A stretch of 39,859 nt of DNA. It comes from a bacterium (GTDB lineage: Bacteria; Patescibacteriota; Minisyncoccia; Phycocordibacterales; UBA5272). The notes under the pieces are model-generated. The model saw only the letters and a program-made list of their open reading frames with translations, was not told the origin of the DNA and did not search any database. The position numbers were made by a program, and so were the translations under genes. Shown here piece after piece: positions 7,807 to 33,698 of the stretch; the stretch's first letter is position 1; each line of letters opens with the position of its first letter. The stretch is taken from contig JAHFMZ010000004.1 of the NCBI GenBank assembly GCA_023267555.1, positions 1-39,859 on the forward strand, written 5' to 3'.

Positions 7807-7819
7807 ATGGGGATAGTAT

Positions 7820-7951
7820 ATAGGGACTAGGGACTGGGGACTAGTGGCGGGACGAAAAAGCGAAGCTTTTTCGTCCCGCACTCTATTTTACCTTTATTTT
7901 ACAGTATTTTACGTATTTTCTATAACCTAGTCCCTAGTCCCTAAAACCTAT
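7820..7951. repeat. Inverted pair of 7-nt-period arrays in the priA/mreB divergent region
   Basis: tagggac tagggac tggggac tagtggc on the left; taaccta gtcccta gtcccta aaaccta on the right. Confidence 0.85.
7847..7879. repeat. 15-bp perfect inverted repeat between divergent priA and mreB
   Basis: gcgggacgaaaaagc-gaa-gctttttcgtcccgc. Confidence 0.9.
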
Positions 7952-7975
7952 ATTTTGTGTTAGAATGAGTCAACT

Positions 7976-12929: not shown

Positions 12930-13032
12930 CAGAAAGAAGAAAACAGAAGGTAGATAAATGCAGAGCGACACCGAAGGTGTCGCTCTGGTATTTTTCTTCT
13001 CTCTTCTTTCTACATTCTGCTATACTGTCATT
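12930..13032. repeat. Inverted pair of 7-nt-period arrays flanking a terminator (frr/rseP)
   Basis: agaaaga agaaaac agaaggt agataaa ... tttttct tctctct tctttct acattct. Confidence 0.75.
12961..12987 (+). terminator. Intrinsic terminator hairpin after frr
   Basis: cagagcgacacc-gaa-ggtgtcgctctg perfect 12-bp stem. Confidence 0.65.
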
Positions 13033-20964: not shown

Positions 20965-21098
20965 AGGTTTTAGTTTATAGGTTATAGGTGTTAGAAAAAA
21001 CAAGTTATTAGCTTGTTTTTTGTTGGCTAAACTCTATCCATTTGCTATTATTATTATGTATTTCTATAACCTAGTCCCTATAACCTAACACCTATCCC
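20965..21098. repeat. Inverted pair of 7-nt-period arrays flanking a terminator (greA/lysS)
   Basis: caggttt tagttta taggtta taggtgt ... taaccta gtcccta taaccta acaccta tcccta. Confidence 0.85.
20995..21021 (+). terminator. Terminator after greA
   Basis: aaaaaacaag-ttattag-cttgtttttt. Confidence 0.75.
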
Positions 21099-21099
21099 T

Positions 21100-26143: not shown

Positions 26144-26263
26144 AGAGAAATCACTTCATCTGCTTTGTTGAAAGAAATTTTTTCTCCACGCGACGTACTC
26201 GCTGTACGTCTTGGTCGCAAAAATTTCTTTCGCCTCGCATCTAAAGCAATTTTTCTCTAACGG
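26137..26263. repeat. Nested palindromic element, copy d
   Basis: Outer ccgttagagagaaat/atttttctctaacgg, middle gaaagaaattttt/aaaaatttctttc, inner gacgtac-tcgct-gtacgtc; left arm includes the ftsI stop codon. Confidence 0.88.
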
Positions 26264-26331
26264 TACCCGTCTCGTTAAATTTATTGAAATAAAAAAAGCA
26301 GTCTCGCGACTGCTGATTTGTTTCATAATGT

Positions 26332-26891: not shown

Positions 26892-27728
26892 ATGAAAAAT
26901 CTGAAATCAAAAAAGCATTCTCTGTCACCTGTCACCTCCCACCTAAAACCTGCTAATGATACTTCCTGGGGAAAGGTCGGAGATTGGTATAACAATCACT
27001 TGGAAAAAGACAAGGACACTTATCACGAGAAAGTGATATTGCCGAATTTGATTCGTTTGCTTGGTGATGTCAAAGGCAAAAATGTTTTAGATTTGGCTTG
27101 TGGGCAAGGATATTTTTCTCGAGCAATCAGAAATGAAAGTGCGACTGTTATTGGGGTGGACATCAGCAAAGAATTAATTTCTCTTGCGACCACAAAAAAT
27201 AAAGAAGAGAAAAACAAAATAGACTTTTTCTCTGCACCGTCGGATGACTTATTTATGTTAAAAGACAAATCACAAAACATTATCGTTTGTGTGCTGGCTA
27301 TTCAAAATATAGAAAAGTTATCAGAGACAATAAAAGAATGTGCTCGGGTGATAAAACCAAAAGGCAAATTATATTTTGTAATGAATCATCCAGCATTCAG
27401 AATTCCTCAATCATCATCTTGGGATTACGATGAAGAAAATGACATACAATATCGTCGAGTTGACCAATATCTTTCAGAAGCCAAAATAAAAATTGATATG
27501 AATCCAGGTCAAAAAACAAATAAAAAGTTTACTGTATCTTTTCATCGACCACTACAAGTGTATGTCAAAGCTTTAGTCAAAAATAATTTTTTAATTTCTC
27601 GTATTGAAGAATGGGAAAGTCACAGAAAAAGTGAAAAAGGTCCTCGTCAAAAAGCAGAAGACAAAGCTCGTAAAGAAATACCATTATTTATGTGTATAGA
27701 GGCACAGAATGTAGAAAGTAGAGTGTAG
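26892..27728 (+). CDS. Class I SAM-dependent methyltransferase; start uncertain
   Basis: NVLDLACGQGYFSRAI...IGVDISKELISLA; N-terminal LSPVTSHLKP is translation of a 7-nt repeat. Confidence 0.85.
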   Translation: MKNLKSKKHSLSPVTSHLKPANDTSWGKVGDWYNNHLEKDKDTYHEKVILPNLIRLLGDVKGKNVLDLACGQGYFSRAIRNESATVIGVDISKELISLATTKNKEEKNKIDFFSAPSDDLFMLKDKSQNIIVCVLAIQNIEKLSETIKECARVIKPKGKLYFVMNHPAFRIPQSSSWDYDEENDIQYRRVDQYLSEAKIKIDMNPGQKTNKKFTVSFHRPLQVYVKALVKNNFLISRIEEWESHRKSEKGPRQKAEDKARKEIPLFMCIEAQNVESRV

Positions 27729-27822
27729 AAAGTAGACAAATACAACATAAATGCGACCTTCGGTCGCGCTTCGGTATCTTCTACCTTCTTCTCTCTGCTT
27801 TCTGCTATACTATTCTACATAT
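27711..27822. repeat. Inverted pair of 7-nt-period arrays flanking a hairpin (methyltransferase/DsbA-like)
   Basis: tagaaag tagagtg tagaaag tagacaa ... tatcttc taccttc ttctctc tgctttc tgctatac. Confidence 0.85.
27753..27767. terminator. Short hairpin between methyltransferase and DsbA-like gene
   Basis: gcgacc-ttc-ggtcgc. Confidence 0.5.
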
Positions 27823-28479
27823 ATGAAAAAATTATCACGTTTTTGGAATACTACAGAAGGTAAATTTATTGGTTGGGTAGCTTTGATTGTTGTACTTTTA
27901 TTTGCATATTATTTTTATGCGACAAGTACAAAAACTGAAACACCACCAGTAAATATAGCTATTTCCGAGACAGATCACGTGCGTGGTGCACTGGACGGCA
28001 AAGTTACTCTTGTAGAATTTGGAGATTTTCAATGTCCAGCTTGTGGAGCTTATGAACCGCTTGTTCGTCAAGTAGAAAAAGATAATGCGAAAACGTTGAA
28101 AGTTGTATTTCGTAATTTCCCATTGATTCAAATTCACAAAAATGCATTAATTGCTGCCAAAGCCGCCGAAGCTGCAGGTCTTCAAGGAAAGTTTTGGGAA
28201 ATGCACGATATTTTGTATGACAAACAATTAGAATGGTCAGAAGGAATAAACGCGCGTGATTTTATTTTGGTTTATGCCACAACTATCGGTCTTGATACCA
28301 AAAAATTTACTGCAGATTTAAATAATCAAGCTCTTGAAGATAAAATTTTAGCTGAATATAAAGAAGGAGTGAATCTCGGGGTGCAGGGAACTCCAACTTT
28401 TTTTGTGAATGGAAAGAAAATAAAGAGCCCACAGTCTCCAGAAGAGTTTAATAAAATAATCGCAGACGCTGCAAAGTAA
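27823..28479 (+). CDS. Membrane-anchored DsbA-like thiol oxidoreductase
   Basis: TM then VTLVEFGDFQCPACGAYEPLVRQ...GVQGTPTFFVNGKKI; start inferred at ATG 27823. Confidence 0.9.
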   Translation: MKKLSRFWNTTEGKFIGWVALIVVLLFAYYFYATSTKTETPPVNIAISETDHVRGALDGKVTLVEFGDFQCPACGAYEPLVRQVEKDNAKTLKVVFRNFPLIQIHKNALIAAKAAEAAGLQGKFWEMHDILYDKQLEWSEGINARDFILVYATTIGLDTKKFTADLNNQALEDKILAEYKEGVNLGVQGTPTFFVNGKKIKSPQSPEEFNKIIADAAK

Positions 28480-31672: not shown

Positions 31673-31745
31673 ATCTTGTTTTATTTGTATAATCAATGAA
31701 TTGATGTATTTGAGTATTCATCTAAAGTCTAATGTCTAAAATCTA

Positions 31746-33698
31746 ATGTCTGTCCCAATGACTACAAACGAAATTCGTGCAAAATATTTAGAATATTTCA
31801 AGAAAAATGGTCACATTATTGTGCCATCTTCTTCTCTTGTCCCAGAAAATGATGCGACCACGCTTTTCACGGGAAGTGGAATGCAGCCGATGGTGCCGTA
31901 TTTACTTGGCCAACCGCATCCGTTAGGCAAGGTCATCACAGATAGTCAAAAGTGTTTTCGTGCGCAAGATATAGAAGAAGTGGGGGACAATCGTCATACC
32001 ACATTTTTTGAAATGCTTGGTAATTGGTCATTCGGAGATTATTTTAAAGAGGGGCAAATAACAATGATGTGGAAGTTTTTGATTGAAGAATTAAAATTAG
32101 ATCCATCGAGATTATATTTTACTTGTTTCAAAGGAAATGATGAGCTTGGTATTTCGCGTGATAATTTTTCTGCAGAACATTGGCAAAAACTTTATAAAGA
32201 AAAGGGAATAGAAGTTTCTATTGGAGAAAATCCAGAAGTTGATGGAATTGTGGGCAATCAACATATTTTTTATTATGGAGAAAAAAAGAATTGGTGGAGC
32301 AGAACTGGTGTGCCAGCAAATATGCCCGAGGGTGAACCAGGTGGGCCAGACTCTGAAATGTTTTTTGATTTTGATCCAGAGAATAAAAATAAAATTCACG
32401 AGAATTCAAAATATAAAGAAAATCTTTGTCACCCAAATTGTGATTGTGGAAGATATGTTGAAATTGGAAATAATGTTTTTATGCAATACAAGAAAGTTGG
32501 GAATAAATTTGAGGAACTTCCCCAACAAAATGTAGACTTCGGTGGTGGTCTTGAAAGAATATCATCAGCTGTAAATGACGACGAAGATATTTTTAATTTG
32601 GATGTGTTTGATGAAGCAAAGAAAATTCTTATTGAAAAAAGCAGGAAAGGTTATGGAGCAGACGAAAAAATAACTTTTGCAATGCGTGTGATTTTGGATC
32701 ATCTTCGCGCAGTAACATTTTTGATTGGCGATGGAATAGTTCCAGGAAATAAAGATCAAATGTATTTTGTACGCAGACTTGTGCGTCGTGCGGTACGCTT
32801 TGCCCGTGATTTAGGTATCAATGAATCATTTACAAAAGATGTAGCACAAACTTTTATTGATACATATAAAAATGAATACAAAAACCTTGAAGAAAAACGA
32901 GAAGTTATTTTGAGTGAATTAGAAAAAGAAGAAAGTAAATTTAGAACAACCCTTGAGAAAGGTATTAAACAATTCGAAAAGATAACAAAAACTGTCGTAG
33001 TAACTCCCAATACTCAGACTCTTAAAATATCAATACCCAAACCAACCGTTATAACAGGTATAGAAGCTTTCGATTTACTTCAATCATATGGATTTCCACT
33101 TGAAGTAACGGAAGAACTAGCAAAAGAGCGAGGTGTAACAGTGGATATTGAAGAATTTGAAAGATTGAAAGAAGAACATTCGCAAAATTCTCGTACAGCA
33201 TCTGTTGGGAAATTTAAAGGTGGACTTGGTGGTGATGGAGAAATGGAAACAAAATATCACACAGCGACTCATTTACTTCATCAAGCACTTCGCACTGTGC
33301 TTGGCGATACGGTTGTACAGAAAGGTTCGAATATCACACCTGAGAGACTTCGTTTTGATTTTGCATATGATGAAAAGATGACAGACGTTCAAAAAAAGAA
33401 AGTCGAAGATTTGATAAATGAACAAATTAAAAAATCTTTGCCAGTTATTCGTGAAGATATTTCTATTGATGAAGCCAAAGCCCGCGGTGCAATGGGATTG
33501 TTTACAGATAAATATGGAGAGAAAGTGAGCGTGTATAGAATAGGTGAAGGAAAAAATAGGGGAGATGCCAATTTATTTTCTATTGAAATGTGCGGTGGAC
33601 CTCACGTCGAAAATATAGGTACACTCGGAACTTTTAAAATAATAAAAGAGGAAGCTGTTAGTCAGGGAGTTAGAAGAATAAAGGCAGTTTTGGAATAA
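31746..33698 (+). CDS. alaS: Alanyl-tRNA synthetase, C-terminally short form
   Basis: TLFTGSGMQPMVPYLLG...RAQDIEEVGDNRHTTFFEMLGNWSFGDYFK...ATHLLHQALR...SIEMCGGPHV; ends shortly after the editing domain. Confidence 0.95.
   Translation: MSVPMTTNEIRAKYLEYFKKNGHIIVPSSSLVPENDATTLFTGSGMQPMVPYLLGQPHPLGKVITDSQKCFRAQDIEEVGDNRHTTFFEMLGNWSFGDYFKEGQITMMWKFLIEELKLDPSRLYFTCFKGNDELGISRDNFSAEHWQKLYKEKGIEVSIGENPEVDGIVGNQHIFYYGEKKNWWSRTGVPANMPEGEPGGPDSEMFFDFDPENKNKIHENSKYKENLCHPNCDCGRYVEIGNNVFMQYKKVGNKFEELPQQNVDFGGGLERISSAVNDDEDIFNLDVFDEAKKILIEKSRKGYGADEKITFAMRVILDHLRAVTFLIGDGIVPGNKDQMYFVRRLVRRAVRFARDLGINESFTKDVAQTFIDTYKNEYKNLEEKREVILSELEKEESKFRTTLEKGIKQFEKITKTVVVTPNTQTLKISIPKPTVITGIEAFDLLQSYGFPLEVTEELAKERGVTVDIEEFERLKEEHSQNSRTASVGKFKGGLGGDGEMETKYHTATHLLHQALRTVLGDTVVQKGSNITPERLRFDFAYDEKMTDVQKKKVEDLINEQIKKSLPVIREDISIDEAKARGAMGLFTDKYGEKVSVYRIGEGKNRGDANLFSIEMCGGPHVENIGTLGTFKIIKEEAVSQGVRRIKAVLE

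Follow-up and report, generated by a model that had tools for sequence, protein, structure and literature searches.

Inverted pairs of degenerate heptad arrays at spacer edges in Patescibacteria as a candidate REPIN-like intergenic repeat

Introduction

Between a methyltransferase-like gene and a DsbA-like gene of a Patescibacteria draft genome, a purine array of degenerate heptads faces its approximate reverse complement across the spacer, and the question raised by this locus is how the two arms came to match. The spacer lies in a stretch of 39,859 nt, here called the window, which is contig C23 of a 514-kb draft genome with 36% GC and 24 contigs (G000). Heptameric repeats have long been noted in bacteria, but no mechanism has been given for them, and in Xanthomonas and Nostoc the units GGGAATC/GGGGAYT have been described, with convergent pairs in Xanthomonas (PMC4692102). 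In the open-access literature, subscription literature being outside the search, neither arrays of this kind in Patescibacteria nor a match of family between arms was found described. The many unit families that coexist in Patescibacteria expose copying through matched partners, a change of family between species and phrases at unlinked sites, and thereby make a long-standing curiosity testable as a question of how intergenic DNA is copied.

Results

The layout reported in the first-pass annotation was found at this spacer and at the three further sites that it named (12930-13032, 20965-21098 and 7820-7951). In all four spacers, purine heptads follow the left gene and matching pyrimidine heptads precede the right gene. 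Housekeeping genes flank these spacers (priA | mreB, frr > rseP, greA > lysS and methyltransferase > DsbA-like gene), with names from our own reading of the translations; the gene calls were simple ORF calls and the drafts are incomplete. An Rfam search of the window gave a tRNA at 2112-2183 as the only match above the gathering score.

In the methyltransferase-DsbA-like spacer, the left arm is a GTAGAAA/GTAGAGT array of family A (AGAARNN) on the + strand at 27711-27737, which was also detected by TRF (27706-27736, period 7/14). The array itself supplies the TAG stop codon (27726-27728, + strand) of the methyltransferase-like ORF (26892-27728). It is followed by the terminator-like hairpin core GCGACC-TTC-GGTCGC (27753-27767, + strand; whole-spacer RNA fold z -5.86) and by the right arm, also family A, on the - strand at 27779-27805, which has its pyrimidine strand on + and pairs with the left arm in the minimum-free-energy fold. 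A -10-like TATACT (27806-27811, + strand), recognised from sequence only, abuts the right arm and lies ahead of the DsbA-like gene (ATG at 27823). As predicted, the methyltransferase-like ORF has the N-terminus MKNLKSKKHSLSPVTSHLKP, a translation of a CTGTCAC heptad array (26892-26940), so the true start may lie further downstream. Arrays running into genes explain spurious N- and C-terminal extensions.

The frr-rseP spacer also carries family A arms, assigned by the genome-wide array and family analysis, on the + strand at 12931-12955 and on the - strand at 12995-13020. The hairpin GAGCGACACC-GAA-GGTGTCGCTC (12961-12987, + strand; hairpin scan and RNA fold) lies between them, and TATACT (13021-13026) follows the right arm. 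In the greA-lysS spacer, array scan, TRF and family assignment gave a left arm of family B (AGGTTAT/AGTTTAT/AGGTGTT) on the + strand at 20965-20994, and a right arm of the same family (CTATAAC/CTAGTCC/CTAACAC) on the - strand at 21064-21099, which runs into the lysS start codon (CTATG); an AT-rich hairpin, AACAAGTTATTAGCTTGTT, was located by RNA folding at 20995-21022 (+ strand). In the divergent priA-mreB spacer, a -10-like TATACT of the priA-side gene (7815-7820, - strand), which is kept in array-free relatives, adjoins a left arm that is a TAGGGAC array (7821-7842, + strand). A 15-bp perfect hairpin, GCGGGACGAAAAAGC-GAA-GCTTTTTCGTCCCGC (7847-7879, + strand; hairpin scan and RNA fold), and a right arm CTATAAC/CTAGTCC/CTAGTCC/CTAAAAC (7920-7953, - strand) follow, and a 25-nt phrase of this right arm was found again near position 44644 of contig C12 of G000. 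A one-armed array (TCTAAAG/TCTAATG; 31721-31751, - strand), found by TRF and the array scan, abuts the alaS start codon at the 5' edge of that gene.

At equal score, 55 noncoding arrays of period 7 were detected in G000, compared with 3-9 for periods 4, 5, 6, 8-11 and 13, and at lag 7 at least 15 of 21 matches were obtained in 40 of 266 spacers, compared with 3-6 at other short lags. The excess in G000 was confined to spacers. The same excess was found in the congeners G003 and G012 and in G034, a member of another family, while 400 kb of a complete genome from another family (G022) showed none. Elsewhere in the phylum or order, only 2 of 380 and 1 of 397 genomes had perfect two- to three-unit arrays of the G000 and G034 types, a rarity that makes surveys by exact pattern miss the class. 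The paired layout was general for about 25-40 spacer edges of G000, and about half or more of the arrays had no recognisable partner.

The median distance between array start and gene edge was 6 nt, and some arrays overran the coding end. The purine strand ran outward from the gene at 91 array edges and inward at 17 (5' edges 51:10, 3' edges 40:7), compared with 46% purine-rich outward among non-array edges, and this polarity held in all four gene orientations. Being outward at both edges, it makes each spacer read purine array, core, pyrimidine array, with a core that may consist of a terminator hairpin, a promoter region or other sequence. An AAATAC box often lay inward of the array in G000 (11 of 41 arrays vs 12 of 325 other edges), and was not seen as a frequent feature in G003, G012 and G034. 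A purine bias of the Szybalski type was rejected, since it would give opposite signs at 5' and 3' edges and both were purine-outward. Gene cassettes capped at both ends were rejected for G000, where the two edges of one gene were no more alike than random (mean percentile 0.56); some likeness was measured in G012 (0.31) and G034 (0.39).

The first-pass annotation had proposed that a whole spacer could fold as one long imperfect hairpin and so link the end of one gene to the promoter of the next. The folding part of this proposal agreed with the predictions, in which all four spacers lay far below dinucleotide shuffles (z -5.9 for methyltransferase-DsbA-like, -8.3 for priA-mreB, -3.6 for greA-lysS and -6.1 for frr-rseP), but maintenance of pairing in register was not supported. 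When the order of heptads was shuffled in one arm, the match was equally good (38 pairs, mean difference -0.24, 1 pair with p ≤ 0.05), which indicated that the arms are matched in family and vocabulary and not by base pairing in register. The long hairpins predicted here result from the common family plus the central hairpin and do not show that pairing is maintained. The proposed link to the promoter was not supported either, as arms in divergent spacers lie upstream of both -10 boxes and arms in convergent spacers beyond both stops, with the polarity still outward.

No special link to terminators was found. Individual array spacers do contain terminators, but hairpins were no commoner in array spacers than in other spacers for any gene orientation, and a GC-rich hairpin with a U-tract was not tied to the arrays. 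Five species had paired arms in the priA-mreB spacer, and in three or more of these no strong hairpin separated the arms; copies in Kaiserbacteria were often without a hairpin, and the hairpin is not an invariable component of the layout. An extended terminator hairpin kept by selection was therefore rejected as the general cause, given no hairpin enrichment and no in-register excess. Many terminator-like hairpins of G000 have a common core, GAGCGACC...GGTCGCTC, with GGGTCGC counted 28 times in intergenic and 10 times in coding DNA, and these cores are more alike than independent terminators need be.

Covariation of the arms was evaluated for six orthologous spacers in 16 genomes of the same genus, which gave 50 species-spacers, and the arms were found to vary together as a pair and not independently. 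With an ungapped similarity statistic, and with several unit families spotted by eye before testing, arms of the same species were alike far beyond arms of different species (554 vs 381 ± 19 when permuted, 0 of 20,000 permutations), and the first four spacers alone gave 459 vs 321 (0 of 20,000). A first test by word sharing was weak owing to A/T runs. Permutation over species ignores shared ancestry; in a within-genome control independent of ancestry, the partner arm scored 474 vs 381 ± 23 for the remaining array-bearing spacers in that genome (2 of 20,000), which indicated that the match is more than a genome dialect. The arm pairs of G000 were AA in five cases, BB in one and mixed in none.

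The unit families changed between species at orthologous spacers. The greA-lysS arms consisted of AGGTTAT-type units in G000, AGTTTAC in G002, TAGCCAC in G005, AGTTTCC in G008 and AGATGTT in G013; the frr-rseP arms of AGAANNN in G000, AAAGTCCAT in G005, AGTCAAA in G007 and AGTTTCM in G008; and the divergent priA-mreB arms of TAGGGAC in G000, CAGTTGT in G002, TAGGGNN in G006, AATTATC in G008 and AGATNNC in G012. G005, which belongs to the same genus as G000, has a second family with the unit AAAGTCYAT, of about 9 nt mixed with 7-nt steps, which forms matched inverted arms in the frr-rseP, recA and rplI spacers (L153, L222 and L237). Paired arms were absent from the priA-mreB spacer in nine other species compared. 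Array-bearing spacers were mostly longer than array-free orthologues (131-187 vs 103-120 nt for priA-mreB, 56-131 vs 3-77 nt for the recA spacer), and in priA-mreB the native core was retained between the arms. The spacers thus behave like insertions relative to their shorter orthologues, as the first-pass idea of an insertion unit had it. Sampling at species level hides single events in the arrays. Something appears to copy the arms in matched pairs, since both sides carry one family even where it differs in the next gap or at that gap in a related species.

These data also bear on a functional reading, in which a nucleoid or regulatory protein reads the arrays, or long RNA hairpins insulate neighbouring genes, and selection keeps the match. 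The strong predicted folds, the constant polarity and one ordered phrase conserved across distant Patescibacteria (TAGCCACTAGGGTATAGCC) agree with such a role. It is nevertheless improbable, considering that several unrelated families occur in one genome, that families are replaced at orthologous spacers and most orthologues are array-free, that pairing in register is no better than in unit-shuffled arms, and that paired arms occur in divergent spacers upstream of both promoters.

The 19-mer TAGCCACTAGGGTATAGCC was detected in 22 copies in G001 and 7 in G005 (at most 1 mismatch), and at the same tolerance was absent in 14 congeners; the reversed control was never found. The copies at gene edges are mostly preceded by TAGTNNT and followed by TAG, then often AAATAC, and the core between the arms differs at each copy. 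Private variants of left arms in G001 were, by eye, mostly missing from the partner arm, so that arms there are not often copied directly from each other. Phrases of 24-25 nt were repeated at unlinked spacers in G000, G012 and G034. In a scan of 84,980 species, the exact 19-mer was present in 42 stretches, nearly all from Patescibacteria (Nomurabacteria, Kaiserbacteria, Harrisonbacteria, Collierbacteria and unnamed bins) plus one from Planctomycetota, with a chance expectation over the whole collection estimated at about two. Among 44 sites of the phrase, each selected through a single arm, 25 had an inverted partner no more than 230 nt away on the spacer side, 3 had a direct one, and none had a partner on the gene side; inverted partners were found in 0 of 40 random stretches. 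The Collierbacteria hit L311 (MFAQ01000042) and the G005 (UBA11704) copy L259 have surroundings alike almost letter for letter, which, judged from the sequences, may be the same DNA binned elsewhere (a binning error) or a recent transfer. Five IMG/VR contigs (L324-L328) with three exact TAGGGAC units may be viruses or mis-binned host DNA.

Polymerase slippage acting on each arm independently, with the likeness of arms due to one genome dialect and purine bias, has a precedent, since an excess of heptameric repeats has been noted in many bacteria, with slippage as a proposed cause (PMC4692102). For the present arrays it is quite improbable, because partner arms are more alike than arms of other array-bearing spacers in the same genome, identical multi-unit phrases stand at unlinked spacers, and inverted partners exceed direct ones by 25:3.

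The core distinguishes clustered copies in G034, where the middle between the inverted arms is also conserved in five spacers, from the copies in G001 and G005, which have no common core. The G034 copies would suit a MITE-like mobile element, whose arms would be terminal inverted repeats moved together at each insertion by a putative transposase, as would the inverted orientation, the dispersal of copies and their presence or absence relative to shorter orthologues. In G001/G005 and at priA-mreB, however, the middle is native-looking and unshared between copies, and the clustered G034 copies may be gene-plus-spacer duplications. No target-site duplication was noticed by eye in the highly diverged orthologous spacers, and the Y1 transposase is absent in G000, G003 and G012. 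A MITE-like origin is considered unlikely.

Discussion

The explanation to which we give about an even chance is a dispersed, non-autonomous, REPIN-like intergenic repeat that is copied as DNA in inverted pairs, the mechanism being an inference. The element would consist of two inverted arms of 3-5 degenerate heptads from one unit family at both spacer edges, with the core of the spacer between them, be it a terminator, a promoter or something else. The DNA of an arm would be copied from further arrays that belong to its family, the opposite arm included, either by template switching between inverted repeats or by ectopic gene conversion in a shifted register, and arm length would change in 7-nt steps through slippage. 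No function would be needed, and the arrays would be tolerated at gene edges. Template switching is an established way in which the arms of inverted repeats become homogenised (PMC8794818, PMC8604942), and it could link the two arms of one spacer. Identical multi-unit phrases at unlinked loci make copying between arrays the simplest reading, and exchange in a shifted register would leave partner arms with words in common but not word order. Of the original suggestion of an insertion unit or gene-conversion-like copying, the paired arms and insertion-like spacers were thus retained, and a matched order of units was not.

Several observations stand against this copying model: partnerless arrays, unshared variants in G001, the ~9-nt unit of G005 and no identified mobilising enzyme. 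Copying does not account for the outward purine polarity, which needs an extra cause. The Y1 transposase (Y1_Tnp, PF01797; RAYT type) was absent from G000, G003, G012 and other array-bearing genomes, and the RVT_1 reverse transcriptase from G002, G003, G008, G012 and the array-rich G034, which is listed as 100% complete. Neither enzyme is therefore required, and mobilisation by RAYT and templating by RVT_1 were rejected. The same absence of RVT_1 bears on a telomerase-like process, in which heptads would be added from an RNA template to 3' ends at spacer breaks. If both ends at a break were extended, the polarity and the same-family arms would result in one step, and the dialects are indeed genome-specific; with the native core often kept between the arms and no template RNA found, such a process is extremely improbable.

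The arrays have position, pairing and polarity in common with the heptads of Xanthomonas and Nostoc: tandem 7-nt units are enriched between genes, and convergent inverted pairs have the G/purine strand away from genes. Those genomes have one unit family each, so arm matching could not be tested there, whereas here there are many families, with the two arms of a spacer matching and the family changing from species to species. Tracts of G that could form G-quadruplexes are not general here, as most families are without GGG (AGAAAGT, AGTTTAT, AATTATC and AGATGTT). REPINs of REP-RAYT systems (PMC3116915) are alike in their inverted doublets, less conserved middle, extragenic dispersal and genome-particular families, and here, too, two inverted short conserved copies around a variable middle are dispersed outside genes. 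The halves of REPINs are palindromic REPs, unlike the non-palindromic heptad runs of these arms, and REPIN systems come with RAYT, which several array-bearing genomes lack. The TAACTGA repeats of Beggiatoaceae and related cyanobacterial heptads (PMC4679880) are similar in start-codon proximity and patchy spread across phyla, but TAACTGA is reported as direct arrays of one unit, apart from a single indirect repeat in the main genome. MITEs likewise have gene-free terminal inverted repeats; they differ in that the core here is usually not common to copies and no partner transposon is known. A broader view, which we hold only tentatively and rate as rather doubtful, is that the arrays represent a widespread selfish repeat class of Patescibacteria, in which inverted pairs of degenerate heptads would be copied from array to array without transposase or reverse transcriptase, with dialects crossing genera and spacer edges rewritten while the core is kept.

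Other repeats were also observed in G000. Dispersed intergenic repeats of another type (CCATCTACTTTGTCGCTACGGAATTTTTCTCAGTCGCCGTACTAG... and GTACGTC words) occur at C16:5000, C22:2230, C6:5080, C19:13158, C12:3569 and C15:1215, several of them between convergent genes, with related copies in G003 and G012. Perfect palindromes with arms of 30-31 bp lie next to tRNA-like sequence at C16:1363 and C16:5263, and another with 30-bp arms at C20:1571. A separate stretch of 48 nt is common to positions 26144-26331 of the window and C9:8972.
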